From Afipia sp. OHSU_II-C1 (GTDB taxonomy: Bacteria > Pseudomonadota > Alphaproteobacteria > Rhizobiales > Xanthobacteraceae): a stretch of 64,000 nt of DNA. Shown piece after piece: positions 47,514 through 63,723 of this stretch. The stretch is from assembly GCF_000497575.1 (NCBI RefSeq), contig NZ_APJI01000001.1:124001-188000 (forward strand). The letters are read 5' to 3'. The position numbers and the translations under genes were made by a program. A model generated the notes under the pieces. It was not told the origin of the DNA and made no database searches. It was given only the letters and a program-made list of their open reading frames with translations. Every line of letters starts with the position of its first letter. Positions within the stretch are counted from its first letter, which is position 1.

Positions 47514-49562
47514 TCAGGCCGCGCGGATGTTCGCCATGAAGCGATCGAGCTCCTGACGCAGCCGGGTGCTTTCGACAGCCAGCGTCTGGGCCGAATTCAG
47601 CACCTCGCCCGACGCGGTTCCGGTCTCGCTCGCGCCGCGGTTGACCTCGGAGATTCCTTCCGCGATTTCCAGCGTGCCGCTGGCGGCGCTCTGGACGTTG
47701 CGGGCGATCTCGGTGGTCGCGTTGCTCTGCTGCTCGATGGCGGCTGCGATATTGCCGGCGATCTTCGAAATCTGGCCGATGGTCTGGCCGATTTCCTTAA
47801 TGGCGGAAACCGATTCCTGCGTGGCGCTCTGCATTCCCGCGATATGGGACGAAATCTCGTCGGTCGCCTTCGCGGTCTGGCTCGCCAGCGATTTCACCTC
47901 CGATGCGACCACGGCAAAGCCGCGCCCCGCCTCGCCCGCCCGCGCCGCCTCGATGGTGGCGTTCAGCGCCAGCAGATTGGTCTGCTCGGCAATCGCCGTG
48001 ATCAGCTTGACCACGTCGCCGATTTCCTGCGCCGCGCGCGACAACTTGGCGATACGCGCGTCGGTCGCTTCGGCCTGCGACACTGCCGCCGCAGCGATGC
48101 GGCTCGACTCCTGCACCTGCCGTCCGATCTCGTGAACGGATGCAGACAGCTCCTCCGTGGCCGCAGCCACGGACTGCACGTTGGCGGACGCCTCTTCCGA
48201 CGCACCCGCAACCTTGCCGGACAGTTCCTGTGCCGTCTCGACCGTGCGCGTCAGGGTGGTAGCTGACGATTCAAGCTGGCTGGCCGACGCCGACACGCTC
48301 GACACGATCACGCCGACAGCGGTTTCGAAATTGTCGGCAAAGCGACGAAGCTCCGCGCTGCGTGCGGCGCTGGCGGACTTGCCCTGTTCCTCGCGCTCTG
48401 CCGCCTCGCTCTGCGCCTTGGCGACCGCCCTCATCTTGAATTCCTCGACAGCGCCAGCCATCTCGCCGATCTCGTCCTTGCGGCCAAGACCCGGCAGGAC
48501 AACATCGAAATTGCCGCTCGCGAGTTCACGCATCGCCTTGCACATGCCGATCATCGGCCGCGAAATTCCGCGGCCCAGCATCCATGCGAGGAATGCGCCG
48601 AACGCGATGCCGCCGCCGCCGAGAATGGTCACGAACTTGCTGGTGCTGTGCGCAGCTTCGGCGGCTTCCTTCGCAAGCCGGGTCTGCTGTGCAAGCAAAC
48701 CGTCCTTGATGGTCTTCGCTTCCTGCGTCACGCTCGAGGCCGCCTCGTTCATCTTGGTGGACAGCGCCGCGATCTTCGCGGTGTTCTCCACGAACTTCGT
48801 GAAGGCCACCTTGTAGGCATCGAGTTCCTGGGTGATTTCCGCAATCTTCGATGTCAGCTTCGCGTCGTCGGCGGTCAGCGTGCCGAAGCTGTTCTTCAGA
48901 AGCTGCATGCGCGCATTGACACTGTTGGCGACGGCGGCGTCGGGGCGCAGCACGTAGTTGCTGATGTTGGACGTGATGGACGCGGAGTGGGTCGCCAGTT
49001 CCTTCGCGTTCTGCTGGATCGACGTCAGACCGGCAAGGATCGCGGTATCCGCCAGATCGTCGAACTTGTAGCGGATGACGTTGCCCATCCGGAGCAACTG
49101 GTTCGACGCGATCGCGGCGTTGTCGGTCTTGAGCTTGATGACCTCGCCGAACAGCCCGGCGAACTCGCTGTAGCTGGCCGAAAGATTGAGAACGCTCTTC
49201 CGGTTGCCGGCAGTGGCAACCCTGGCCGCGCGCTCGATGGCCGCGCCAAGGGCAGTCTCCGCAGCGCGTGCAGCCTCTTCGTCGGCGGGAAGGCCGGTCG
49301 TCACATAATAACGCGCGAGAAGCTGATAGGCCGCGAGTTCGCGGTCGATGTCCCGCGCGCTGTCGGTCTCGGCGACAATGCCCTGATAGGACTGGACGCC
49401 CTCGACGATCCGCTCAAAGCCGAAATAGGCAACGCCCATATTGATGGCGGAGATGCCCAGCACCGTGACGAAGCCGAGCATGATCTTGGTTCGAAATCGC
49501 AGATTGGAAAGAAAGCTGACGCTCGTCTTCTGCTTTGCCGGAGTGCTTTTGAACCAGCCCAT
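47514..49562 (-). CDS. Methyl-accepting chemotaxis protein
   Basis: The ATG at 49562 ([11 protein letters not shown]) gives 682 residues. The order is cytoplasmic tail, TM1 (~26-47), a ~270-residue all-helical periplasmic domain, TM2 (near [20 protein letters not shown]), HAMP ([20 protein letters not shown]) and the signalling domain with hairpin tip [20 protein letters not shown]. The periplasmic domain length and its heptad-like helices fit a helical bimodular (HBM) sensor, a class known to bind organic acids in some bacteria; that is inference. It senses an external compound and controls CheA. No other chemotaxis genes are adjacent. Confidence 0.9.
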
Positions 49563-49677
49563 TTCCAACCCCCAAAAGTTCTTTTTGCATGTCAAACCGG
49601 CCGGTCTCCAACCGGCGCAAAGTGCCTCAAGGTAAACAAAATTGAATAACACCCCGTAAATTGCTACCTCATTCAGC

Positions 49678-49703
49678 AAAAAACGCCCGCATAGCGGGCG
49701 TTT
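49678..49703 (-). terminator. Intrinsic terminator of nrdB
   Basis: Stem AAACGCCCGC / GCGGGCGTTT with loop ATA; on the minus strand it is followed by a run of six T (TTTTTTGCTG). It lies 73 bases after the nrdB stop, so it ends the nrdA-nrdB transcript. It is strong on the minus strand. Confidence 0.9.
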
Positions 49704-49775
49704 CCTGCAAACATCATGCGCATTCGCCGCCATTGCACCGTATCTCGGCACCGCGCGGCGGCAAAGATTAACGAT

Positions 49776-50918
49776 TTATTCCCAGCTCAGCGCGCCGCCG
49801 TTCTGGTATTCAATTACGCGAGTCTCGAAGAAGTTCTTCTCCTTCTTCAGGTCCATCGCCTCCGACATCCACGGAAACGGATTGTCGGTCTCGTCGAACA
49901 CGCGGGTCAGCCCAAGCTGGGCGCAGCGGCGGTTGGCGATGAAGTGCATGTACTGTTCGCACAGCGCTGCGTTCAGGCCGAGGAACCCGCGCGGCATGGT
50001 ATCGCGGCCATAGGCCGCTTCCAGTTCGGCCGCTTCGCGGATCATTCCGCGGACCTCCTCCTGGAATTCGGCGGTCCACAGATGCGGGTTCTCGATCTTG
50101 ATCTGGTTGATCACGTCGATGCCGAAGTTCAGATGGATGCTCTCGTCGCGCAGGATGTACTGATACTGCTCGGCGATGCCGACCATCTTGTTGCGGCGGC
50201 CGAGCGACAGGATCTGCGCGAAGCCGGTATAGAACCACATGCCCTCGAAGCAGACATAGAAGGTGATCAGGTCGCGCAGCAGCGCCCGGTCGGCCTCCGG
50301 CGTGCCGGTCTTGAAGTCCGGGTCTTCCAGATTCTGGGTGTGCTTGAGCGCCCACGCCGCTTTGTCGGTGATCGAAGGCACCTCCCGGTACATGTTGAAC
50401 AGCTCGCCCTCATCGAGGCCGAGGCTTTCCACGATGTACTGGAAGGTGTGGGTGTGGATCGCTTCCTCGAACGCCTGACGCAGCAGATACTGGCGACACT
50501 CCGGATTGGTCAGGTGGCGGTAGATCGCCAGTACAATGTTGTTGGCGACGAGGCTTTCGGAGGCCGCGAAGAATCCGAGGTTGCGCTTGATGGCGCGGCG
50601 CTCGTCGTCGGTGAGGCCGTCGCGCGATTTCCACAGCGCGATGTCAGCCTGCATCGACACTTCCGTCGGCATCCAGTGGTTGTTACAGCCGGCGAGATAC
50701 TTCTCCCACGCCCATTTGTATTTCAGCGGCAGGAGCTGATTGACGTCGGCGCGGCAGTTGATCATCGCCTTGTCGTCGACAGAAACGCGGCCACCCTTGC
50801 GGTCGATGGTGCCGAGGCCGGTTGCATCGGCTTGCTCCGATACGACAGGCTTACCGGTCAGAATCGGCGGCAGGTTGGTAGCGGGTTTGGCAAGTGCGGG
50901 TTCGGACCAGTCGAGCAT
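49776..50918 (-). CDS. nrdB: Ribonucleotide reductase beta subunit, class Ic-like (Phe at the radical-Tyr position)
   Basis: A 380-residue R2 subunit. Metal ligands read from sequence are E121 ([10 protein letters not shown]), E152 and H155 ([11 protein letters not shown]), E225 (CFEGMWFY), E259 and H262 ([13 protein letters not shown]). Four residues after H155, where E. coli R2 has the radical Tyr122, stands F159, and Tyr comes at 161. As I recall the Chlamydia R2, its spacing E89-E120-H123-F127-Y129-E193-E227-H230 is the same, and the first ligand is Glu rather than the Asp of class Ia. This indicates a Mn/Fe class Ic cofactor. It supplies the oxidising equivalent to NrdA for deoxynucleotide synthesis. 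It follows nrdA after a 126-base gap holding a family B repeat. Confidence 0.93.
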
Positions 50919-51044: not shown

Positions 51045-53957
51045 TTACTGGCAGGCTTCACAATCGGGATTGTCGATCGAACACGCCGCCACGTTCGACA
51101 GGTCGGGCGCGGTCTGCGGCACGATGATAGGCTTGTTCACCGGCATGGCCGCGAGCGGCGTTGACGACACGGCATTGAGCTTGCCGTCGGTACCCTTCAG
51201 CGTGGATTTCTCCACATGGGTGGCGCTGCGCGAGCGCAGGTAATAGGTGGTCTTCAGGCCGCGCGCCCACGCCAGCCGATACAACTGATCGAGCTTCTTG
51301 CCCGACGGATTGGCTATGTAGAGATTGAGCGACTGCGCCTGATCGATCCATTTCTGCCGCCGCGCCGCAGCCTCGATCAGCCACGCGCTGTCGATCTCGA
51401 ACGCCGTGGCATAGAGCAGCTTCAGATCATCCGGTACGCGATCGATGGAGCCGACGCTGCCGTCGAAGTATTTCAGATCCGACACCATCACCTCGTCCCA
51501 CAGGCCCCGCGCCTTCAGGTCGCGGACGAGGAACTCGTTCACCTCGGTGAAGTCGCCCGACATGTTCGATTTGACATAGAGGTTCTGGTAGGCGGGCTCG
51601 ATCGACTGCGCCACACCGCAGATGTTGGAGATGGTCGCCGTCGGCGCAATCGCCATCACGTTGGAGTTGCGCATGCCGACCGACTGCACCCGCCCACGCA
51701 ACGCTGTCCAGTCCAGCGTCGCGCTCCGATCCATGTCGAGGCCGTTGCGGGCGTCGGCGAGAATCTCAATGGAGTCGATCGGCAGAATGCCGCGGCTCCA
51801 CAGCGAACCCTTGAACGACGGATACTGTCCGCGCTCTGCCGCGAGATCGACCGATGCCGTGATGGCATGGAACGAAATCGCTTCCATGCTGGTGTCGGCG
51901 AACGCGACGGCGGCGTCCGACGCCATCGGAATCCGCAGCGCATGCAGCGCATCCTGGAAGCCCATCAGGCCGAGGCCGACCGGGCGATGCTGCAGGTTCG
52001 AGCGGCGCGCTTCCGGGATGGTGTAGAAATTGATGTCGATGACATTGTCCAGCATCCGCATCGCGGTCGAGATCGTCCGCTTCAGCCGCGCATGATCGAT
52101 GCCGCCCTCACCCACATGGTTGAGCAGATTGACCGACCCGAGATTGCAGACCGCAACCTCGTCGTCCGACGTATTCAGCGTGATCTCGGTGCAGAGATTG
52201 GATGAGTGAATCACGCCGACATGCTGCTGCGGCGAACGAAGATTGCACGGGTCCTTGAACGTGATCCACGGATGCCCGGTTTCGAACAGCATGGTCAGCA
52301 TGCGGCGCCACAGATCCGTGGCGCGCAGCGTCTTGAACACGCGCATCTCGCCGCGCGCAGCCTTCGCTTCATAGAATGCGTAACGCTCGGCGAACGCCTT
52401 GCCGTAAAGGTCGTGCAGGTCCGGGGTCTCGTCGGGCGAGAACAGCGTCCATTCGCCATCCGCCTCGACGCGCTGCATGAACAGATCCGGCACCCAGTTC
52501 GCGGTGTTCATGTCGTGGGTGCGGCGGCGGTCGTCACCAGTGTTCTTGCGCAGGTCGAGGAATTCCTCGATGTCGACGTGCCAGGTCTCGAGATAGGCGC
52601 AGACCGCGCCCTTGCGCTTGCCGCCCTGATTGACCGCGATTGCCGTGTCGTTGGCAACTTTCAGGAACGGCACCACGCCCTGGCTTTCGCCGTTGGTGCC
52701 CTTGATGTGCGCGCCGAGGCCGCGCACGCGGGTCCAGTCGTTGCCGAGACCGCCGGAATATTTCGCCAGCAGCGCATTGTCCTTCACCGACTTGAAAATG
52801 CCGTCGAGATCATCGGCCACCGTGGTGAGGAAGCAGGAGGAGAGCTGCGGCCGCAGCGTGCCGGAGTTGAACAGCGTCGGCGTCGACGCCATGAAGTCGA
52901 ACGACGACAGCAGGTTATAGAACTCGATGGCGCGCGCCTCGCGGTCGATCTCGCGGATCGCAAGCCCCATCGCGACGCGCATGAAGAACGCCTGCGGCAG
53001 CTCGATGCGGTTGCCGTCCTGATGCAGGAAATAGCGATCATACAGCGTCTGCAATCCGAGGAACTGGAACGACAGATCGCGCTCCGGCTTCAGCGCTGCC
53101 GCGATCCGTTTCAGGTCATAGCGCGCCAGTTCAGGATCGAGCAATTCGGCTTCGATGCCTTTTTTGACATAGACCGGGAAGTATTCCGCATAGCGCGCGG
53201 TCATATCAGCCTGCGACGCATTGATCTGCGCGGAATGAACGAACGACAGCACTTCGGTGCGCAGCTTGTCGAGCAGGAGGCGCGCGCTGACATAGGCGTA
53301 GTTCGGCTCCTGCTCCACCAGCGTGCGCGCGGCCATGATGCCGGCAAGCGCAAGTTCATCCTGGCTGATCCCGTCGTAGAGATTGCGCTTCGTTTCAGCC
53401 AGTACAGGTGCCGCGTCGACGCCGTCGAGATTGGCGCACGCTTCCTGAATAATCAGCATCAGGCGATCGGCGTCGAGCGGGACGCGCGCGCCGTTGCCCA
53501 GCGTGACATGCAGCTGCGGCTCGGACGGCGTTTTGACCGACCTGGCGGCGGCGGCTTCGGCGCGCTGGCGCTGACGTTCGTCGCGATAAAGCACGTAGGC
53601 ACGGGCGACCTTGTGGTGCTCGCTGCGCATCAGCGCCAGTTCGACCTGATCCTGCACGTCCTCGATATGGAAGGTGCGCCCCTCGCCGATCCGGCGGGTC
53701 AGCGCGCCCACCACTTCGTTTGTGAGCTGCTCGATCACCTCGTGAATGCGGCGCGAGGCGGCTGCGGTGTGGCCTTCAACTGCAAGAAACGCCTTGGTCA
53801 TCGCAATCGAGATCTTGCTGGCGTCGAACGGCGAAACCGTGCCGTTGCGGCGGATGATCTGGAGCGGCGGCTCTGCCGCAGGGATAGCCAGTGACTCGGA
53901 ACGCAACTGAATGAGAGGAGCGGATTGGGCGGCTTCGCGTTCGATCAAGAGAGACAT
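51045..53957 (-). CDS. nrdA: Ribonucleoside-diphosphate reductase alpha subunit, class I
   Basis: The ATG at 53957 (MSLLIEREAAQSAPLIQ) gives 970 residues. After a short leader comes an ATP-cone (IIRRNGTVSPFDASKISIAM, ~residues 40-130) for allosteric control of activity. A linker of ~90 residues with a second, cone-like stretch (VTLGNGARVPLDADRLMLII) follows, then the ten-stranded barrel: SSCFLTTVADDLDGI (redox Cys), NLCTEITLNTSDDEVAVCNLGSVNL (active-site Cys-Glu and redox Cys, quoted in parts) and NSNVMAIAPTATISNI. The C-terminus CSIDNPDCEACQ holds the shuttle cysteines. It reduces nucleoside diphosphates with NrdB. A cobalamin riboswitch precedes it. Confidence 0.94.
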   Translation of the reverse strand: MSLLIEREAAQSAPLIQLRSESLAIPAAEPPLQIIRRNGTVSPFDASKISIAMTKAFLAVEGHTAAASRRIHEVIEQLTNEVVGALTRRIGEGRTFHIEDVQDQVELALMRSEHHKVARAYVLYRDERQRQRAEAAAARSVKTPSEPQLHVTLGNGARVPLDADRLMLIIQEACANLDGVDAAPVLAETKRNLYDGISQDELALAGIMAARTLVEQEPNYAYVSARLLLDKLRTEVLSFVHSAQINASQADMTARYAEYFPVYVKKGIEAELLDPELARYDLKRIAAALKPERDLSFQFLGLQTLYDRYFLHQDGNRIELPQAFFMRVAMGLAIREIDREARAIEFYNLLSSFDFMASTPTLFNSGTLRPQLSSCFLTTVADDLDGIFKSVKDNALLAKYSGGLGNDWTRVRGLGAHIKGTNGESQGVVPFLKVANDTAIAVNQGGKRKGAVCAYLETWHVDIEEFLDLRKNTGDDRRRTHDMNTANWVPDLFMQRVEADGEWTLFSPDETPDLHDLYGKAFAERYAFYEAKAARGEMRVFKTLRATDLWRRMLTMLFETGHPWITFKDPCNLRSPQQHVGVIHSSNLCTEITLNTSDDEVAVCNLGSVNLLNHVGEGGIDHARLKRTISTAMRMLDNVIDINFYTIPEARRSNLQHRPVGLGLMGFQDALHALRIPMASDAAVAFADTSMEAISFHAITASVDLAAERGQYPSFKGSLWSRGILPIDSIEILADARNGLDMDRSATLDWTALRGRVQSVGMRNSNVMAIAPTATISNICGVAQSIEPAYQNLYVKSNMSGDFTEVNEFLVRDLKARGLWDEVMVSDLKYFDGSVGSIDRVPDDLKLLYATAFEIDSAWLIEAAARRQKWIDQAQSLNLYIANPSGKKLDQLYRLAWARGLKTTYYLRSRSATHVEKSTLKGTDGKLNAVSSTPLAAMPVNKPIIVPQTAPDLSNVAACSIDNPDCEACQ

Positions 53958-54015
53958 CGGCAGACCCCGTGCGTGTTGCAATTTTTGGGGGCTGAGGCCG
54001 AAAGGCGCGTCGTCG

Positions 54016-54069
54016 CGGTGCGCGAACGCACCGAAGCACGCGACCGCCGGACACCCCGCCCGTGGACGT
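54016..54069 (-). promoter_or_regulatory. Expression-platform region of the nrdA cobalamin riboswitch
   Basis: Between the aptamer and nrdA lies an 18-base element (54052-54069; ACGTCCACGGGCGGGGTG on the minus strand) identical to one after the metE aptamer. It is followed on the minus strand by a 7-bp tetraloop hairpin, CGGTGCG-TTCG-CGCACCG (54016-54033). Its GCGGGG can pair with the CCCCGC of the aptamer core, a possible ligand-dependent switch. Confidence 0.5.
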
Positions 54070-54079
54070 TCTTTTGGTG

Positions 54080-54271
54080 TCGCGGCAGGTCTCCTGGCTC
54101 GCAGGTCGGCATTGAATCCGGTCTTCCCGATGCGAAAACGCACCAGTGACATCGGTCGGATTCAACTCACTGCTTACAGTTGCGGGGGCAGCGCCGGACT
54201 TGCTGCATCGGAGTGCAACTCACCGGCTTCCCATCTTCGCCACAAGGCCTTGCGGCTTTGTAGAACCGTGA
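54080..54271 (-). promoter_or_regulatory. Cobalamin riboswitch upstream of nrdAB
   Basis: On the minus strand the segment carries the conserved AdoCbl aptamer blocks in order: a 5' ACGGTTCT, GGGAAGCCGGTG, the core GCTGCCCCCGCAACTGTAAG, a variable hairpin, GGGAAGACCGG and the closing box GCGAGCCAGGAGACCTGCCG. It ends 123 bases before nrdA. B12 binding is expected to lower nrdAB expression, consistent with a B12-dependent class II reductase existing elsewhere in the genome (inference). Confidence 0.93.
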
Positions 54272-54555
54272 CGTCTACATCTGGTGACTTTCACGGTGCG
54301 ATGTCAAGCGGCTCGCGGTGTGAATAACCGGGACAATCACGCAACAGCGCAGAATGCGCCGGAAAGCCGTCAAAGAAATTTTCCGCTGGCGTGAGGAAAC
54401 GGCGCCTGGAGTTCAGGTCTGGCGATCACGCATCAAGAATCAGCTTGCATGATTCTCTTGCGCCGGCTGCCCACTCGCTCCCCGCGCGCGTCCGGCACAG
54501 CCGCGGTGGGAAGCTTTCCCTTTGACCGGGGGCAAGCCGCTTCACATAACTTGAT
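54272..54555. other. Gene-free core of the divergent nrdAB/metE control region
   Basis: 284 bases between the two aptamers with no convincing coding sequence. It must contain both promoters facing outward, but no clear -35/-10 pair was recognised. The sequence is less GC-rich near 54375-54460 (AAAGAAATTTTCC, then AGAATCAGCTTGCATGATTC), which fits promoter DNA. Confidence 0.5.
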
Positions 54556-54752
54556 CATCGCGGTTCTGCGGATCGGTGATCCGGAGCCAAGAGGGAATGC
54601 GGTGCGCGCGGCCCGAGAGGTTCGCGCAACTCCGAAGCTGCCCCCGCAACTGTAGACGGTGAGCCTCGTCCATCGGTGCCACTGAGGTGAAAGCCTCGGG
54701 AAGGCCGGACATCAGGCGTTGAGCCGTGAGCCAGGAGACCTGCCGCGATCAC
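54556..54752 (+). promoter_or_regulatory. Cobalamin riboswitch upstream of metE
   Basis: Plus-strand AdoCbl aptamer: GCGGTTCTGCGG at the 5' end, AGAGGGAATGCGGTG, the core GCTGCCCCCGCAACTGTAGA, GGTGCCACTGAGG, GGGAAGGCCGGA and the closing box GTGAGCCAGGAGACCTGCCG. The 18-base element ACGTCCACGGGCGGGGTG follows at 54756-54773. It ends ~108 bases before metE. B12 is expected to switch metE off because B12-dependent MetH can then work. Confidence 0.95.
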
Positions 54753-54859
54753 AGTACGTCCACGGGCGGGGTGCCCCGGTGTGTCGCTTGCGAAAGGACG
54801 CTCGCCGCCCTTCCCGTTCGCGCATGTCCGGCCCTGCCCCCACATCACGGGGTTTTGCA

Positions 54860-57199
54860 ATGTCGGGTTCTTCTACTGCTTCCATTCCTGTCGCCACGCT
54901 GGGCGTACCGCGTATCGGTCCGCGCCGTGAACTGAAAATCGCGCTGGAGAAATTCTGGTCCGGCAAGATCAACGAAGGCGCGCTGCGCGAGGCTGCGGCG
55001 AAAATCCGCGCCGACAACTGGACGCGCCAGCGCGATCTCGGCGTCACCGTGATCCCCTCGAACGACTTCTCGCTCTACGATCAGGTGCTGGACACCAGCG
55101 CCATGGTCGGCGCGATTCCGACAATCTACGGCTGGACCGGCGGACCGGTGTCGCTGGAAACCTATTTCGCGATGGCGCGTGGCAGCCAGAAGGATGTGGG
55201 CCACGACGATGGCTGCGCCCATAACCATAGTCACGGCCACGGCGTGCCCGCGCAGGAAATGACCAAGTGGTTCGACACCAACTATCACTACATGGTGCCG
55301 GAATTCACGAGGGATCAAACCTTCACCCTCGCCTCAACCAAGGCAATCGACGAATACCGCGAAGCCAAGGCGCTCGGCATCCAGACCCGGCCGGTGCTGG
55401 TCGGCCCTGTGACATTCCTCAAGCTCGGCAAGGGCGAAAACCGGTTGGTGCTGCTGCCCAAACTGCTGCCGGTTTACATCGAAGTTCTCAACAGACTCGC
55501 CGCCGAAGGCGCGGACTGGGTGCAGATCGACGAGCCATGTCTCGTGCTCGACCTCGGTGCGGATGAAAAGGCCGTGCTGAAAGCCGCGTACAGCGAATTC
55601 GCGCTGAAGGTACCTGGCATCAGGATCATGCTGACGACCTATTTCGGCGAACTCGGCGACAACGCCGATCTCGTCACCAAACTACCCATCGCCGGCGTGC
55701 ATCTCGATCTGGTGCGCGGCAAGGGCCAGATCGATACCGTCCTGAGCAAGCTGCCTGCGGATCGCGTGATTTCGCTCGGCGTGATCGACGGCCGCAACAT
55801 CTGGCGCGCGGATCTTGCGAAGGTTCTCGACCTTGCCGCCAAGGCCATCGCGGCGCGCGGCGGCGCGGACCGCATCCAGATCGCGCCCTCGTGCTCGATG
55901 CTCCACGTGCCGATCGACCTCGATCAGGAGACCGATCTCGATGCGGACCTGAAAAGCTGGCTTGCGTTCTCGGTGCAGAAGATGGGCGAACTGGCGGCCC
56001 TCAGCCGCGGGTTATCGGCAGGACGAGAGGCCATCAAGAGTGAGCTTGCGGCTTCCGATCAGGCGGCAGCCACGCGCGTCTCGTCGGCGAAGATTCACAA
56101 TCCCACTGTGAAATTGCGCGCCGCCGATACGTCGCCCAAGCTGTCGCAACGCAGGAGTCCGTTCGGCGCGCGGCAGAAACTCCAGAGCAAGGTGCTCCGC
56201 CTGCCCTCGTTTCCAACAACAACCATTGGATCATTTCCGCAGACCGAGCAGGTGCGCAAGGCGCGCGCCGAGCACGCCAAGGGCCAGCTCAGCGATGCCG
56301 ATTACGAGGCGTTCCTGCGCACGGAAACCGAGAAGGCGGTACGCTGGCAGGAGGATATCGGCATCGATGTCCTCGTGCACGGCGAGTTCGAGCGCAACGA
56401 CATGGTCCAGTATTTCGGCGAGCAACTGTCGGGCTATGCCTTCACCAAGCACGGCTGGGTGCAGAGCTACGGCTCCCGCTACGTCCGTCCGCCCATCATT
56501 TTCGGTGACGTCTCGCGGCCGAAGCCGATGACGGTCGGCTGGTCGTCCTATGCGCAGTCGCTCACCACGCTGCCGATGAAGGGCATGCTGACCGGCCCGG
56601 TCACCATGCTGCAATGGTCGTTCGTGCGCGACGATCTTCCGCGCGATCAGGTCTGCCGCCAGATCGCCTTCGCGCTGCGCGATGAGGTGACCGATCTCGA
56701 AACAGCCGGCATCGGCGTGATCCAGATCGACGAGCCGGCATTGCGCGAAGGCCTGCCGCTGCGCAAGGGCGACTGGAAGGCCTATCTCGACTGGGCGGTG
56801 GAATGCTTCAGGATTTCACAGGCCGGCGTGAAGGACGAAACCCAGATCCACACCCATATGTGCTACGCCGAATTCAACGACATCATCGACGCCATCGGGG
56901 CGATGGACGCCGACGTGATCTCGATCGAGACCTCGCGCTCGAAGATGGAGCTGCTCGACGCCTTCGTCACCTACAAGTACCCGAACGAGATCGGACCGGG
57001 CGTCTACGACATCCATTCGCCGCGCGTGCCGGAGGTTCCGGAGATGATGGAGCTGATCGGCAAGGCGCGGCGCAACCTGTCGCCGGAGCAGATCTGGATC
57101 AATCCGGATTGCGGCCTCAAGACGCGCGGCTGGCCCGAGGTCAGGTCTGCGCTGACCAACATGGTCGAAGCGGCCCGGCAGGCGCGTGGAGCGGTTTAG
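54860..57199 (+). CDS. metE: Cobalamin-independent methionine synthase
   Basis: The ATG at 54860 ([20 protein letters not shown]) gives 779 residues, the usual length; upstream ATGs at 54824 and 54719 lie in the leader or aptamer. The N-terminal and C-terminal barrels are both complete. Zinc ligands appear in [10 protein letters not shown] (His, Cys), the following [11 protein letters not shown] (Glu) and [11 protein letters not shown] (Cys). It transfers a methyl group from methyltetrahydrofolate-triglutamate to homocysteine. Residues ~115-128 hold a His-rich insertion ([14 protein letters not shown]) ahead of the conserved [12 protein letters not shown]. Expression is under the cobalamin riboswitch directly upstream. 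Confidence 0.95.
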
Positions 57200-57819: not shown

Positions 57820-59094
57820 TCAGGCAAACATATCGGCTGTGATTCCGGCATACCAGCCCATGTTTTCCGCCTGCGTCTGCTTACGCAGTTCGGCATCCTC
57901 GCCGGTCTTCGAGACGAAGGTGGACGCCGCCGCGATCTTGCCGTCCTTCGGCTCATAGGCGCCGCCGATCTTCACCGTATCGTCGGTGTCGATCATGCTC
58001 CAGCAGGTATTGGTGTAGCGCGCCGGGAAGGTCCGCGCCGACACCAGTTCACCCCGGATCATCATGGCGGCGACCTTGGCCTGGCTGTTGGCGGAGAACG
58101 CGGACTTCGGCATGTCGCCCGCGATGCAGGCATCGCCGAGAATGTAGATATTGGAATCGGTAGCCGACTTCATGTTGGTCGGATCGATGGCGCAGTAGCC
58201 GGTTGCGTTGGCGAGGCCGGCATCGCGCGCGATGCTACCTGCCATTTGGGCGGGAATGACATTGACCAGCGCCGCGTTCTTGTAGGTCTCGAACCCCGTC
58301 ACCACGGTGTTGGTCTTGGGATCGACCGATTTCAATCCGTCATGCACTTTGGGGCCGAGCCATTCGACCATGCCCTTGTAGTGCTTTTCCCAGCCCTCCT
58401 GAAAAAGTCCCTGCTTGGAGAAGGTATCCTTCGGATCGATGATGATGATCTTGCTGCGGTCCTTCTTCGCCTTTTTCAAAGCGTGCGCCATCATCGAGAC
58501 GCGCTCATAGGGTCCCGGCGGGCAACGGTAGGGGTTGGGCGGCGCGATCATCACAATGACACCGCCATTGGGCACGGCATCAAGCCGCTTCTTCAAGAGC
58601 AGTGTCTGCGCGCCTGGCTTCCAGGCATGTGGCATCTTCTCTTCCGCGGCCTGCGACCAGCCCGGAACGGAATCGTATTTCAGATCGATGCCCGGCGAGA
58701 CCACCAGGCGGTCGTAAGGCAGCTTCTTGCCGCTGGCGAGGATGACTTCCTTCTTGTCGCGGTCGATCTTCGTCGCGCGGTCGGCGACGATGGTGACGCC
58801 GTGCTTCTTCACCGCGCCGTAGCCGTGGGTAATGGAGGGATAATCCCGCACACCGCCGAGATAGAGATTGCTGTGGAAGCAGGTCTGATATTTCGCCAGC
58901 GGCTCCACCAGCGTGACGCTGATCGTGCCTGCACTGTCCTTGGCGATGTATTTTGCCGCAGTCACGCCGCCTGCGCCGCCGCCGATCACCACCACGCGCG
59001 GCTTGCCCTGCCCGAGCACCGCAGGCGCACCGAACATCATGACGCCCGCGAACGATGCCGATCCTGAAATCAACTGCCGACGACTGATGCTCAT
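57820..59094 (-). CDS. soxF: Sulfide dehydrogenase flavoprotein, FccB/SoxF type
   Basis: The ATG at 59094, six bases after GGAGG, gives 424 residues with a Tat signal (SISRRQLISGSASFAGVMM). The FAD motif is VVVIGGGAGGVTAAKYI near residue 31. The two cysteines of the redox-active disulfide of flavocytochrome c are visible in NPYRCPPGPYERVS and in ATGYCAIDPTNM. It oxidises sulfide (or assists the Sox system) in the periplasm and passes electrons to a c-type cytochrome. The small cytochrome encoded two genes upstream is the probable FccA-like partner. Confidence 0.88.
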   Translation of the reverse strand: MSISRRQLISGSASFAGVMMFGAPAVLGQGKPRVVVIGGGAGGVTAAKYIAKDSAGTISVTLVEPLAKYQTCFHSNLYLGGVRDYPSITHGYGAVKKHGVTIVADRATKIDRDKKEVILASGKKLPYDRLVVSPGIDLKYDSVPGWSQAAEEKMPHAWKPGAQTLLLKKRLDAVPNGGVIVMIAPPNPYRCPPGPYERVSMMAHALKKAKKDRSKIIIIDPKDTFSKQGLFQEGWEKHYKGMVEWLGPKVHDGLKSVDPKTNTVVTGFETYKNAALVNVIPAQMAGSIARDAGLANATGYCAIDPTNMKSATDSNIYILGDACIAGDMPKSAFSANSQAKVAAMMIRGELVSARTFPARYTNTCWSMIDTDDTVKIGGAYEPKDGKIAAASTFVSKTGEDAELRKQTQAENMGWYAGITADMFA

Positions 59095-59137
59095 GTGTCC
59101 CTCCAATATGTCTTATTGAAAATCAGGCGGCTGCGGA

Positions 59138-59659
59138 TCAGCCGACCTTGAGATACGCAAAGCCTTTCGATTGCAGCGCCGCGACAGTGGCAACCCCGGA
59201 CGGCACGAAGCTGATAAACGGCGCATCCTTCACCTTGGCCTTGTCGAGCTTCAGCCGCTGGAAGGTGATTTCGCACAGATGCACCTTGAGGCCGTTCTTG
59301 GCGAGCGCGGTGACGCGCTCGAACAGCGCCGGATCGATGGTCTCATCCTTCCAGGGCGTGCCCTCAAGCGTAGAGAGGAAATACTTCACCGCGACGCTGT
59401 GGGCGATGATGACCAGTTGCAGACCGAACGGGTCCGCGCCGTAAGCCGAATAGTGATTGGAGATATTGTTCAGCGTCTGGGCGAAGCGCGCGTTGTCGCC
59501 GTAATCGCAGTGGTAGAGACAGGCGACATCGCCTTCCTTCTTCAGGTCCGCCATGGACAGGGCCTGAGGCGCAGCCTGCGCCGTTGCGGCCGCCAAGCCG
59601 CCGGCAGCGGCTCCGATGAGAAGACTGCGCCGTGTTGCCGAGCCATTCTGTTCTGTCAT
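59138..59659 (-). CDS. Tat-exported DsrE-family sulfur-relay-like protein
   Basis: The ATG at 59659 after GGAGGGTG gives 173 residues with a Tat signal (SATRRSLLIGAAAGGLAAAT). The rest is a single DsrE/DsrF-like domain, CLYHCDYGDNARFAQTLNNI ... VHLCEITFQRLKLDKAKV, with three cysteines. DsrE proteins carry persulfides or act as non-catalytic partners; most are cytoplasmic, so a periplasmic one is notable. It lies between the small cytochrome and soxF in the sox run, which suggests a role in periplasmic sulfur transfer. Confidence 0.8.
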   Translation of the reverse strand: MTEQNGSATRRSLLIGAAAGGLAAATAQAAPQALSMADLKKEGDVACLYHCDYGDNARFAQTLNNISNHYSAYGADPFGLQLVIIAHSVAVKYFLSTLEGTPWKDETIDPALFERVTALAKNGLKVHLCEITFQRLKLDKAKVKDAPFISFVPSGVATVAALQSKGFAYLKVG

Positions 59660-59682
59660 GACACCCTCCGAAATGTTGAACA

Positions 59683-59988
59683 CTATTTCTGGGTTCTGAA
59701 ATAAGCCGCCAGAGCGGCGATGTCACCTGCCTCCAGCCGTCCGGCTATGGTCTGCATCACCGGGTTGTCCCGCTGCTTGTTCTTGTAGGCGTTTATCACG
59801 GCGATGAACTGGTCTTCCGGCCATCCCGTGATTTTCGGAATACCCTGAGCCGCGCCCGAAGCACGGTGACAGGTTACACATTCCGCCGATAAATACTCTC
59901 CAAGTTCCCGGTCTCCCGCAGCAGCATTTTCCAGCGCAAGACCCGCCGCCAGAACGAAAAGCAACGCCCTCGCCGACGGCCGCTCCAT
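59683..59988 (-). CDS. Small c-type cytochrome of the sox cluster (FccA/SoxE-like)
   Basis: A 101-residue precursor whose ATG overlaps the soxD stop by one base (TGATG). A signal peptide (MERPSARALLFVLAAGLALENAAAG) precedes a single haem site CVTCH in SAECVTCHRASG; the Met ligand is probably in NPVMQTIAGRL. The profile matches the cytochrome subunit of flavocytochrome c (one haem) rather than the diheme SoxE of Paracoccus. It is likely the electron acceptor for the SoxF flavoprotein. Confidence 0.82.
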   Translation of the reverse strand: MERPSARALLFVLAAGLALENAAAGDRELGEYLSAECVTCHRASGAAQGIPKITGWPEDQFIAVINAYKNKQRDNPVMQTIAGRLEAGDIAALAAYFRTQK

Positions 59989-60695
59989 CAATCGACCTTC
60001 GGGCCGGACTTGCTGTCGGGCGTCACATCCACCGAGATCGCCCGTCCGGTCACTTTCGGTGCGCTGCGGCAATCCTTCATGCACGGGTCTTTCTTCCAGA
60101 ACTGCTTTTCGGACGTCTCGCGGTCGTCTTCGAAGAAGGCTGAGGCGTTCGGCATCTTGATCGAGGTGAAGTTCTTGTCGCTGAGTTCGAAGTTCTCGTC
60201 CTTCACGATGTCGTTCATCGACAGCAGATAGGCAACGATCGCGTAGACCTCATCGTCGGTCAGCGAACGTGCATTGCCGTATGGCATCGCGCGCTTGATG
60301 TAGTCGAACGCGGTGGACAGGTCTGGCCAGAACGAGCCGATGGTCTTGTCGGGCCGGTCCGCCTTGAGCGTCCCCGCGCCCCCGGCGAGCACCGGCCAGC
60401 GGCCCGCGCCTTCGCCGAATTCGCCATGACACGAAGCGCAGCGCTCCTGAAACAACGCATCCCCCTGCTTCACCGTGCCCTTGCCCGGCGGCAATCCCTT
60501 GCCATCCGGGCGGACATCGGTGTCCCACGCCTTGATTTCCTCGGGCAGCGCGGGACGTCCAAGTCCGAGCTTAGACGAGGTCTTCGCTGTCGCCTGTGTG
60601 GCAATTTGCTGCGCATGGCTTGAGCGCGGCGCAGCAAGAACGAGCGCCACGCCAGCAAGCACCACGAACGCCGTGGCCTTAACCGATTTCGACAT
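59988..60695 (-). CDS. soxD: Sulfur dehydrogenase cytochrome subunit SoxD (short form)
   Basis: The ATG at 60695 lies 17 bases inside soxC and gives 235 residues with a signal peptide (MSKSVKATAFVVLAGVALVL). One haem site, RCASCHGEFGEGAGRWPVL, is followed by DLSTAFDYIKRAMPYGNARS and SDDEVYAIVAYLLSMND, the hallmark of SoxD. The C-terminal PCMKDC is also typical. Paracoccus SoxD is longer (about 370-400 residues) and has two haems; the second domain is missing here. With SoxC it forms Sox(CD)2, which oxidises the sulfane sulfur bound to SoxYZ. Confidence 0.87.
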   Translation of the reverse strand: MSKSVKATAFVVLAGVALVLAAPRSSHAQQIATQATAKTSSKLGLGRPALPEEIKAWDTDVRPDGKGLPPGKGTVKQGDALFQERCASCHGEFGEGAGRWPVLAGGAGTLKADRPDKTIGSFWPDLSTAFDYIKRAMPYGNARSLTDDEVYAIVAYLLSMNDIVKDENFELSDKNFTSIKMPNASAFFEDDRETSEKQFWKKDPCMKDCRSAPKVTGRAISVDVTPDSKSGPKVD

Positions 60696-61956
60696 TTTCA
60701 GTCTCCCCGGTTGAACGCACCAGCCAGGTCTGAATGCCGTTGTTGTGGTAGATCGAATTGACGCCGCGCACCTTGCGCAGTTCGTCCTTGGTCGGCTGCA
60801 CATAACCGGTGGAATCCATCGCGCGGGACTGGATCATCAGCTCCTGCCCATTCCAGTCGAAATCGACATAGAAGCGCACCAGCGATTTCTCCAGCACTGG
60901 CCCGTCGATCCGCGCGGTCTGCCAGTTGCGGCCGCCGTCCATGGTGACGTCCACGCGCTTGATGGTGCCGCGGCCGGACCATGCGAGACCGCTCAGCACA
61001 TTGCGGCCCTTGTGCTTCAGCGGCGCCTGCGGCGACGGATTGGTCACCACCGACTTGGCATCCATGATGAAGGTGTGCTTGCGCGAGCGGCCGTCGGCGA
61101 GGAGGTCGGTGTACTTCGATGTTTCCTCGCGGGTCTGCCACGGCTGATCGCCGGCTTCGATGCGGCGAATCCATTTCACCCAGAGATTGCCTTCCCAGCC
61201 GGGAATCACCGCACGCAGCGGGTAACCCTGTTCAGGCCGCAGCGCTTCGCCATTCATGCCGAAAGCGAGCAGGCAATCGTTCAGCGCCTTTTCGACCGGC
61301 AGCGAGCGGTTCATGGCGGCGGCGTCCGCGCCTTCCAGCATCAGCCATTTCGCGTTCGGCTTGAGGCCCGCTTCATCCAGCACTGTCTTCAGCGTCACGC
61401 CCGTGTACATCACGTTGTGAACCATGCCGTGAGTGAACTGGCAGCCGTTAAGCTGCGCGCCGCGCCACTCCATGCCGGAGTTCGCCGCGCATTCGAGGAA
61501 ATGGATCTTGTTCACCCGCGGCATGCGCTTGATGTCGTCCATCGTGAACACCAAAGGCTTGTCCACGAGGCCGTTGATCATCAGGCGATGGTCGGCGGGA
61601 TTGATCTCCGCGACACCCGAATGATGCCGCTCGAAGCAGAGGCCCGATGGCGTGATGATGCCATCGAGCTCATGCAGCGGCGTGAAGTTGACGGAGGACT
61701 CCGGCGATGCCGTCAGCCACGACACGTCGCGGCGGATCACGTTCTTCTCGAACTTCGAGGGCACGCCGTAAGGAGTCTTCTGCACGCCGTCGCCGAGGTA
61801 GCGATTCCAGTCCTGAACCTCGGTGATCAGCGGATCGGGCTTGGCGCCTTCCGCCATCGCAGGCTTGGCGCCGAGCGCAACACCCGCGCCCGCGAGGCTC
61901 GCTGCGCCGAGGAATTTGCGGCGGCTGAGAATATCCGCAGATGATGTGTCACTCAT
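60679..61956 (-). CDS. soxC: Sulfur dehydrogenase molybdopterin subunit SoxC
   Basis: A 425-residue precursor with a clear Tat signal (LSRRKFLGAASLAGAGVALG). The sulfite-oxidase-type molybdopterin fold is shown by LHELDGIITPSGLCFERHHS, FLECAANSGMEWRG with the Mo-ligand cysteine, and YPLRAVIPGWEGNLWVKWIR. The C-terminal domain is the dimerisation fold. It is the catalytic part of Sox(CD)2 in the periplasm and is coupled to soxD by a 17-base overlap. The presence of SoxCD predicts complete oxidation of thiosulfate to sulfate without stored sulfur. Confidence 0.94.
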   Translation of the reverse strand: MSDTSSADILSRRKFLGAASLAGAGVALGAKPAMAEGAKPDPLITEVQDWNRYLGDGVQKTPYGVPSKFEKNVIRRDVSWLTASPESSVNFTPLHELDGIITPSGLCFERHHSGVAEINPADHRLMINGLVDKPLVFTMDDIKRMPRVNKIHFLECAANSGMEWRGAQLNGCQFTHGMVHNVMYTGVTLKTVLDEAGLKPNAKWLMLEGADAAAMNRSLPVEKALNDCLLAFGMNGEALRPEQGYPLRAVIPGWEGNLWVKWIRRIEAGDQPWQTREETSKYTDLLADGRSRKHTFIMDAKSVVTNPSPQAPLKHKGRNVLSGLAWSGRGTIKRVDVTMDGGRNWQTARIDGPVLEKSLVRFYVDFDWNGQELMIQSRAMDSTGYVQPTKDELRKVRGVNSIYHNNGIQTWLVRSTGETENVEIG

Positions 61957-62025
61957 GCGGCATCCTTTCTATCTATCTCGATACGTGAATATGTTGAGCG
62001 CGACTTTGCATTGAAATGTCCCGCG

Positions 62026-63723
62026 TTACGCGCCTGAAACTTTGACAGCCGTGTTCGGCTCGACCTTCACAGTGCCACGCTTGCCGACATGCGCCGACAC
62101 CACGTCCCAGATCGGCGGACCCTGCGTGCCTTCGTTGACGCTGGCCCAGCCCGCGACGCTGTAGCTCTTCGCCGCCTCGATCGGCTTGCCGGATCTCAGA
62201 TGGGTGAGATCGGAAATGCGCGAGCCCATCGGCTTCGACACATCAATCGAATATCCCATGCCGCCGATGCGCACCATGTCGCCGCCGCCCTGGAAGTACG
62301 GATCGGGGTGGAAGATGTTGTCGGCGACGTCTTCGAGGATTTCCTTGAGCTGCGCGCCGGTCATCTGGTTACGATAGCAGTTCGGGTAGGTGATCGCGGT
62401 GGCGTTGGTGACATCTTCCCATGTGATCGGGCTGTCCGGCAGCAGCGTGCCGCCCCAGCGGAATCCCGGCGACAGCGCAATCTCGGCATCGCGCTCCGAC
62501 AGCATCGCGTCGCAGATCAGATCGTCGAACGTGCCGTTGAAATTGCCGCGGCGATACAGCAGCGAATCCGTCTTGCCGATCACGCGCGCCAGATCCTTGG
62601 CGAACGGCGCCCTGACCTTCTCCACAAGCGCGGTCATGGCGCTGTCCGGTTTGATCGCATCGGTGAACACCGGCATGAGCTTGAAGCGGACGCCCGCAAC
62701 CTTCTTGTCCTTCACGTCAATGTCCAGACGCGAGACAAACTTGCCATGTGAGCCGGTGGCGACCAGCACGGTATCGCCGACGCGCACCAAGCCCGGCATC
62801 GCATCATGCGTATGCGCGGTCAGGATCACGTCCAGACCCTTCACGCGGCCAGCGAGCTTGCGGTCGACGTCGAAGCCATCGTGCGACAGCAGCACGACGA
62901 TCTGCGCACCCTCGGCGCGCGCTTCATCGACCTGCTTCTGCATGTCTTCTTCGCGGATGCCGAATTCCCATTTCGGGAACATCCAGCGCGGATTGGCGAC
63001 GGCGGTGCGAGGCAATGCCTGTCCGATCACGGCGATCTTCGCGCCGCCCTTCTCGAACATCTTGCGCGCTTCGAACACCGGCTCCTGCCATTCGTTGTCG
63101 CGGATGTTCTGCGCAAGGAATGCGAACGGCGCCTTGTCGGCGATTTCCTTGACGCGGTCCGCGCCATAGGTGAACTCCCAGTGGCCGACCATGGCATCGA
63201 CCTTGAGCGCCGACATGACATCGACCATGTCCTGCGCTTTGGTCTGCAACGAGGTCCAGCTTCCCTGCCAGGTGTCGCCGCCGTCGAGCAGCAGCACCTT
63301 GTCCTCGCCGCGTTCCGCACGCACCGCGTTGATCAGGGTCGCGACGCGGTCCATGCCGCCCATGCGGCCGTAGTTGCGCGCGAGCGATACGAAATCATCC
63401 GCCGTTAGCGCGTAGGCGTCGGCTGATCCTGCGGCGACGTTGAAATACTTCCGGAACGCGTCGTCGGTGAGATGCGGCGGCAGACCCTTGTCCGCGCCGA
63501 CGCCGAGATTGACCGACGGCTCGCGGAAATACAGCGGCATCAACTGCGCATGATTGTCCGCCACATAGAGGATCGTCACCGTGCCGAGCGGATCAAACTT
63601 GAGAATGTCCGCCTGCGTCAGCTTCTGCTGCGCGGCCACGCGCCCGAGCGGCCCCAGTCCGCTGCCGATCGTCAGCGCAGACGCAGCCGCGCTCGCCTGC
63701 AGGAATTCCCGCCTCGATATCAT
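62026..63723 (-). CDS. soxB: Thiosulfohydrolase SoxB
   Basis: A 565-residue precursor with a Tat signal (ISRREFLQASAAASALTIG). It is a dimanganese 5'-nucleotidase-like hydrolase; metal and substrate motifs include VADNHAQLMPLYFREPS, LLDGGDTWQGSWTSL, the SoxB signature VGHWEFTYG, LLSHDGFDVD and TAHTHDAMPG. It releases sulfate from SoxY-bound S-sulfonate. It lies between soxZ and soxC, 84 and 69 bases away; no soxA is found in the soxZ-soxB gap. Confidence 0.95.
   Translation of the reverse strand: MISRREFLQASAAASALTIGSGLGPLGRVAAQQKLTQADILKFDPLGTVTILYVADNHAQLMPLYFREPSVNLGVGADKGLPPHLTDDAFRKYFNVAAGSADAYALTADDFVSLARNYGRMGGMDRVATLINAVRAERGEDKVLLLDGGDTWQGSWTSLQTKAQDMVDVMSALKVDAMVGHWEFTYGADRVKEIADKAPFAFLAQNIRDNEWQEPVFEARKMFEKGGAKIAVIGQALPRTAVANPRWMFPKWEFGIREEDMQKQVDEARAEGAQIVVLLSHDGFDVDRKLAGRVKGLDVILTAHTHDAMPGLVRVGDTVLVATGSHGKFVSRLDIDVKDKKVAGVRFKLMPVFTDAIKPDSAMTALVEKVRAPFAKDLARVIGKTDSLLYRRGNFNGTFDDLICDAMLSERDAEIALSPGFRWGGTLLPDSPITWEDVTNATAITYPNCYRNQMTGAQLKEILEDVADNIFHPDPYFQGGGDMVRIGGMGYSIDVSKPMGSRISDLTHLRSGKPIEAAKSYSVAGWASVNEGTQGPPIWDVVSAHVGKRGTVKVEPNTAVKVSGA

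Follow-up and report, generated by a model that had tools for sequence, protein, structure and literature searches.

The principle that a B12-independent isozyme stands under a B12 riboswitch when the cell also has the B12-dependent enzyme reportedly comes from two earlier studies. Rodionov et al. (2003) are said to have found B12 elements on nrdAB and metE by comparative genomics, and Borovok et al. (2006) to have described B12 riboswitch control of nrdABS in Streptomyces. To our knowledge, neither study describes a divergent pair of such switches, their decay in genomes lacking nrdJ, or a linkage with queH or prpDCB.

In Caulobacter crescentus, B12 turns off reporters that carry the 5'-UTRs of metE and btuB, and these two are said to be the only genes with a B12 riboswitch (PMC6538847). 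The locus described here resembles that system in belonging to an Alphaproteobacterium with both MetH and MetE that scavenges B12 (probably so in the present case), whereas in Afipia nrdAB also bears a switch and is divergent from metE (PMC6538847). Cobalamin represses metE of Priestia megaterium, likewise a B12-independent isozyme in a cell with MetH, but through a SAM-cobalamin tandem on one gene, while Afipia has two separate cobalamin switches on two genes (PMC9600662). The B12-free counterparts NrdAB, NrdDG, MetE, and QueH are listed for a set of isolates, with no gene cluster shown in the accessible portion of the paper (PMC10378866). The partial texts of PMC8123684, PMC2667541, and PMC6593275 contain no description of the divergent pair or of the island proposed below, and no description was found elsewhere in a search that covered mainly literature outside subscription and partial texts, which is weak evidence of novelty. 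Riboswitches on B12-free isozymes, the switch type and its logic are already known. On this weak evidence, what may be new is a divergent layout maintained across a genus of probable scavengers, the cases of decay and, most of all, the proposed island of B12-free substitutes.

The aptamer pair and the genes it faces

The window, that is, the whole 64-kb stretch of DNA analyzed here, contains two matches to RF00174 and nothing else in a cmscan search at gathering thresholds. The aptamer of the nrdAB cobalamin riboswitch lies on the minus strand at 54067-54285 (118.9 bits, E 3.2e-29) and that of the metE riboswitch on the plus strand at 54544-54761 (119.1 bits, E 2.8e-29). Both cover model positions 1-189, and with a gathering score of 31.5, chance is excluded as the source of both matches. 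The initial annotation had placed two complete aptamers, one per strand, in the 902-nt gap between nrdA and metE (53958-54859), and the covariance-model search that it called for confirms this with a strong full-length match on each strand. Each aptamer is on the same strand as its gene and ends 98 nt (metE) or 109 nt (nrdA) before the start codon. The inverted aptamers are 258 nt apart, and the spacer (54286-54543) is, by position only, the expected site of both promoters. A sigma-70 consensus scan of the gap gives no site above threshold. Hexamers resembling TTGACA or TTGACC are readable by eye 5' of both aptamers.

The nrdA gene (51045-53957, minus strand, start codon at 53957) encodes the alpha subunit of a B12-independent class Ia ribonucleotide reductase (NF005544, 1728.9 bits; cut-off 965) and is followed by nrdB for the beta subunit (49776-50918, minus strand; NF005550, 682.5 bits; cut-off 309). 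On the other side, metE (54860-57199, plus strand, start codon at 54860) encodes the B12-independent methionine synthase (TIGR01371, 1092.3 bits; cut-off 929.95). These scores, far above the curated cut-offs, bear out the earlier view that both controlled products are B12-independent isozymes. A gene pair had been proposed on each side; nrdA and nrdB form one, whereas the metE side is a single gene. The pair had also been called one control point, and it should rather be regarded as two independent RNA leaders with the spacer alone in common: the aptamers cluster by gene, and the nrdA and metE switches have each been lost separately in some relatives. Next to metE, a minus-strand block (57820-63723) contains sulfur-oxidation genes: SoxB and SoxC exceed their cut-offs, and there are also a protein resembling cytochrome c and a flavoprotein with distant similarity to sulfide:quinone reductase. 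Downstream of nrdB, a chemotaxis-receptor-like protein is encoded at 47514-49751 (minus strand), below the cut-off for named receptors.

The B12-dependent enzymes NrdJ and MetH, predicted to be encoded elsewhere in the genome, are both present there, nrdJ at C14:127166-130915 (2365.4 bits) and metH at C6:538123-541692 (1757.8 bits). Each regulated gene thus has an encoded B12-dependent counterpart, as in an isozyme-switching regulon. The genome (5.08 Mb, 42 contigs) contains three RF00174 matches, namely the pair in the window and one on contig 11 (C11:122663-122896) 5' of a gene, presumably btuB, whose product has a TonB-dependent receptor plug domain (PF07715). Switching of nrdA and metE by B12 itself is predicted.

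Neither CobN nor CobJ is over cut-off in this genome. In the genus set (n = 29, this genome and 28 others), CobN gives no match in 28 members and two pieces below cut-off in G028, and cobJ is over cut-off in none of the 29, whereas 24 (CobN) and 22 (cobJ) of 32 other relatives are over cut-off. On these counts, the genus is most likely unable to make B12 and must scavenge it, and this genome is probably that of a scavenger.

Expression platforms and origin of the two switches

Fifty leaders from aptamer to start codon (23 of nrdA, 23 of metE, and 4 of nrdD) were compared, 47 from the genus and the other three from G034 and G035. A G-rich element directly 3' of the aptamer is common to all 50 with small changes. 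In the window, it is ACGGGCGGGGTGTCC in the nrdA leader (54049-54064, minus strand) and ACGGGCGGGGTGCCCC in the metE leader (54762-54777, plus strand), and it is a candidate for a small hairpin or an antisequestor. At their 3' ends, the leaders may form a hairpin with two helices, an inner one in which a C-rich strand faces the SD (usually GGGGU) and an outer one that extends to the start codon. The predicted SD-sequestering hairpin of nrdA (53957-54001, minus strand) consists of an outer UCGGC/GCCGA helix reaching into the AUG and an inner helix between GCCCC (53988-53992) and GGGGU (53964-53968), and the corresponding helices in relatives carry compensated changes. That of metE (54836-54859, plus strand), with GCCCC (54836-54840) facing GGGGU (54849-54853), is assigned by homology with other metE leaders; for the window leader, folding of its last 56 nt predicts that the SD pairs with a different C-rich stretch.

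In 49 of the 50 leaders, the predicted fold engages the SD core in at least 4 bp, and 43 leaders also have the outer start-codon helix. When the 5' part is shuffled, the SD is still paired in 82% and both helices form in 52%, so folding alone is modest evidence. The variation of the stems, which appears partly compensated, is stronger evidence than folding. GCCCC/GGGGU, ACCUC/GAGGU, and GCUCC/GGAGU replace one another as inner stems, as do UCGGC/GCCGA, UCGA/UCGA, and CACGGC/GCCGUG as outer stems. Since MAFFT alignments of the short tails put the 5' stem in the wrong place where loop length varies, swap tests were used instead of a per-column pair count. The mean pairing energy is -15.5 kcal/mol between own 5' and 3' halves and -14.8 kcal/mol between swapped halves, and values as low occur in 14 of 5000 permutations with all 50 leaders and in 8 of 5000 with the 28 distinct tails. 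The effect is small: 15 of 49 foreign 3' parts pair better with the median leader, and the own part is best or tied best in 4 of 50. A kissing interaction of L5 with the loop of the sequestor hairpin (L5-L13) was also considered; own L5 pairs no better than swapped L5 (-4.8 versus -5.4 kcal/mol, not specific), and covariation of this contact is therefore not claimed.

Downstream of the aptamers, the structure that may hide the RBS is the SD/start-codon hairpin, and intrinsic-terminator-like sites number 0 in 53900-54900, where 1.0 is expected from shuffles. The potential sequestor together with the lack of a terminator in the gap fits translational OFF switches, and the likely mechanism is translational. 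Two independent switches, one per strand, would each repress translation of a B12-independent enzyme when a cobalamin coenzyme is available. With ligand bound, the SD and the start codon would be held in the hairpin, which would open without ligand; here we infer ligand binding, the direction of switching, and the ON-state structure. While NrdAB and MetE are repressed, the cell would rely on NrdJ and MetH. We regard it as very probable that nrdAB and metE are governed by two such independent translational OFF switches, a reading that starts from the observed aptamers, genes, counterpart isozymes, and conserved potential hairpin, from a gap free of terminators, and from a genome with neither CobN nor CobJ over cut-off.

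It is quite unlikely, in our estimation, that the switches act mainly on transcription, by termination or Rho loading, instead of on ribosome access. Some cobalamin riboswitches elsewhere do act by termination, the leaders allow several folds, and SD pairing is frequent after shuffling too, but the count of terminator-like sites (Rho-dependent action apart) and the compensated changes in the SD/start-codon hairpin both speak for translational control. A different objection concerns the pair itself: the inverted orientation, the short distance, and the common post-aptamer element would also be expected if one aptamer had recently arisen from the other by inverted duplication, or if it were a degenerate, nonfunctional passenger. 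This is hardly credible, because both aptamers score about 119 bits, decayed aptamers look different (their cores are deleted in G006 and G020), and the 51 aptamers in a maximum-likelihood tree sort by gene and not by genome (5 changes for nrdA and 2 for metE; shuffled mean, 16.7), though several deep branches are weakly supported and the two aptamers of G034, which is outside the genus, fall together. Because of this clustering, the idea that the two aptamers evolved in concert, as arms of an inverted repeat, is rejected. The grouping by gene indicates that, within the genus, the nrdA and metE switches are of old and separate origin; that of nrdD is probably derived from the nrdA switch, since nrdD aptamers nest among those of nrdA.

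Distribution and decay of the switches in the genus

The divergent aptamer pair between nrdA and metE is found in 16 of the 29 genus members (this genome, G000, and G001, G002, G003, G005, G007, G012, G013, G014, G017, G018, G019, G021, G025, G026, and G027), with 0.25 to 6.2 kb between the two aptamers; this and the other presence counts across relatives are phylogenetically non-independent. Both switches occur in another layout in G004, G008, G010, and G028, while G016 has only metE with its switch and G024 only nrdA with its switch. Neither gene is found in full in G009, G011, G015, and G023, of which G009 and G023 are 83-84% complete. In G004, a full-length riboswitch match precedes a metE that is broken into two reading frames (G004:C1:1899789-1902079). 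A class III reductase with an additional switch is found in four genomes, identified as NrdD with NrdG by family models in G008, by similarity to the G008 proteins in G010, and by an ATP-cone match and the leader only in G007 and G018. The four cobalamin riboswitches before nrdD are located at L057 882-1197, L058 14878-15195, L067 360-683, and L068 2775-3091 (minus strand as listed).

Among the 21 carriers of an nrdA riboswitch in the genus, 19 have NrdJ over cut-off. The other two are G018, where NrdJ is in three frames, and G025, which is 84% complete and is the only carrier in which no NrdJ was found. The split nrdJ of G018 (G018:C6:455797-459580) reflects either frameshifts or assembly errors. 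NrdJ was also not found in G022 (99% complete) and G006 (85% complete), both of which have the nrdA and metE genes and MetH and neither intact switch. No cobalamin aptamer is detected at nrdA or metE of G022 by cmscan at E up to 0.5; G006 retains a 114-nt remnant of the nrdA aptamer (23.8 bits, nhmmer) and none at metE. Over the first 460 residues, NrdA of G006 is closest to that of G022 among 22 genus loci (92.4%; next, 89.3%), and the nrdA upstream regions of the two match at 86.1% of aligned positions (72.6-75.5% with G000, G001, and G020). G006 and G022 thus look like sister lineages, and the decay of their nrdA aptamer is counted as one event for this reason.

The contrary case of G020 should be noted. 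It keeps NrdJ, nrdA, and the divergent layout, with an aptamer at metE only. Its nrdA aptamer survives as a relic of the 3' end, at about 360-530 of L049 (minus strand), and the expression platform is still readable. A strict rule tying each switch to its counterpart was dropped, since G020 (for nrdA) and G006 and G022 (for metE) have the partner and no switch. The incomplete G025, with an nrdA switch and no NrdJ found, is a possible exception of the opposite kind. Loss of the metE switch in the latter two in spite of metH indicates that switch loss does not simply follow counterpart loss.

In G022, nrdA is preceded by a palindrome resembling an NrdR box, CACTATATATTGTG (L060, near 3390 on the minus strand), with 2 mismatches to the consensus. 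The scan gives two sites with 4 mismatches in G006, one such site before nrdJ of this genome (G000), and none with up to 4 mismatches in G020 or in the 20 of 21 riboswitch-bearing nrdA leaders of the genus that were scanned (all except G025). These sites are too weak to claim that NrdR has taken over nrdA in the nrdJ-less pair G006 and G022.

A proposed island of B12-free substitutes

We propose that the metE-nrdAB locus forms the nucleus of a larger "B12-independence island." In some relatives, additional DNA separates the two switches, and much of it is B12-related in its own right. The gene for the B12-independent epoxyqueuosine reductase, queH, occurs in 11 of the 29 genus members. In each it precedes metE in the same orientation and has no separate switch; in G007, one CBS-domain gene lies between queH and metE. 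The B12-dependent counterpart of QueH, QueG, exceeds its cut-off in 1 of the 11 members with queH (G027) versus 17 of the 18 members without it, the exception being G025, which is 84% complete. The surroundings of metE were examined in 24 genus members, in stretches of 20 kb or less (for G000, the window), the set being all 29 less G009, G011, G015, and G023, which have no full metE, and G025, whose contig is short. Within these 24, queH is at the metE spot in 11 and prpD, prpC, and prpB are 5' of metE in 6 (G006, G008, G010, G016, G018, and G022); in example matches, PrpC and PrpB are over cut-off and PrpD and a RamB-like regulator below. The three prp genes belong to the methylcitrate cycle, which is a B12-free route around methylmalonyl-CoA mutase. 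In the window itself, nrdAB adjoins the metE riboswitch, and neither queH nor prp is present.

Beyond the genus, loci around relatives of MetE were compared as the best 80 of 569 confirmed, in windows of up to 14 kb, some truncated where the contig stops; L078 is the one locus that comes from the genus. This sample is phylogenetically uneven, mostly Rhizobiales by title, and the counts are raw, without tree correction. An aptamer stands directly before metE in 77 of these best 80 of 569 loci, and at least one of nrdA (50% identity or more), nrdD, queH, and prp is present in 31. An nrdA of at least 50% identity is near metE in 13 of the 80, divergent with an aptamer on each side in 10, tandem in two (in one of which, L090, the nrdA start is outside the locus), and convergent in one. 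Another eight of the best 80 have, behind a second aptamer, a distant RNR alpha subunit (25-34% identity), probably of the nrdHIEF or some other class I type. Genes of prp are found in 18 of the best 80, queH in 5, and nrdD in 2, and the prp-bearing loci include records titled Rhodospirillales and Hyphomonas. The differing layouts suggest that the linkage probably formed more than once.

These observations can be read as follows, with about equal chances, in our view, of being right or wrong. The Alphaproteobacterial metE riboswitch would anchor a modular island of substitutes, with metE, an RNR (nrdAB, nrdHIEF-type, or nrdDG), queH, and prpDCB (for methylmalonyl-CoA mutase) as members, in which a gene tends to have its own riboswitch if its B12-dependent partner is retained and has none if that partner is lost, as for queH or for nrdA without nrdJ. 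It would be gained and lost piecewise as lineages shift between making, scavenging, and needing B12. The stand-in genes at the spot and their switches would then hint at which B12 enzymes a cell still owns, and the riboswitch pair would be a readable record of bacterial adaptation to B12 supply. Linkage to metE could also guide the search for additional B12-free substitutes among genes of unknown function, and relatives in which one or the other switch has been gained, lost, or left as a relic in nature are ready-made test strains.

The proximity of metE, nrdAB, queH, and prpDCB might instead reflect chance gene order in a small number of clades, with no functional island, and the uneven sampling of the best 80 of 569 loci leans that way, as do the 18 of 24 genus genomes without prp and the 13 without queH at the spot. 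We consider such a coincidence unlikely. None of 20 hand-picked comparison windows of 20 kb from 8 genus genomes contains any of the island genes. Within the metE locus, prp extends to records titled Rhodospirillales and Hyphomonas, and the RNR partner is divergent, tandem, or convergent with very different identities to the window NrdA. Since both the orientations and the NrdA identities differ, the metE-RNR linkage probably arose more than once. One further aptamer was observed in G032, where a sub-threshold match of the AdoCbl type (RF01482, 39.5 bits; gathering score, 50) at L072 4591-4748 (plus strand) is divergent from a strong RF00174 match.
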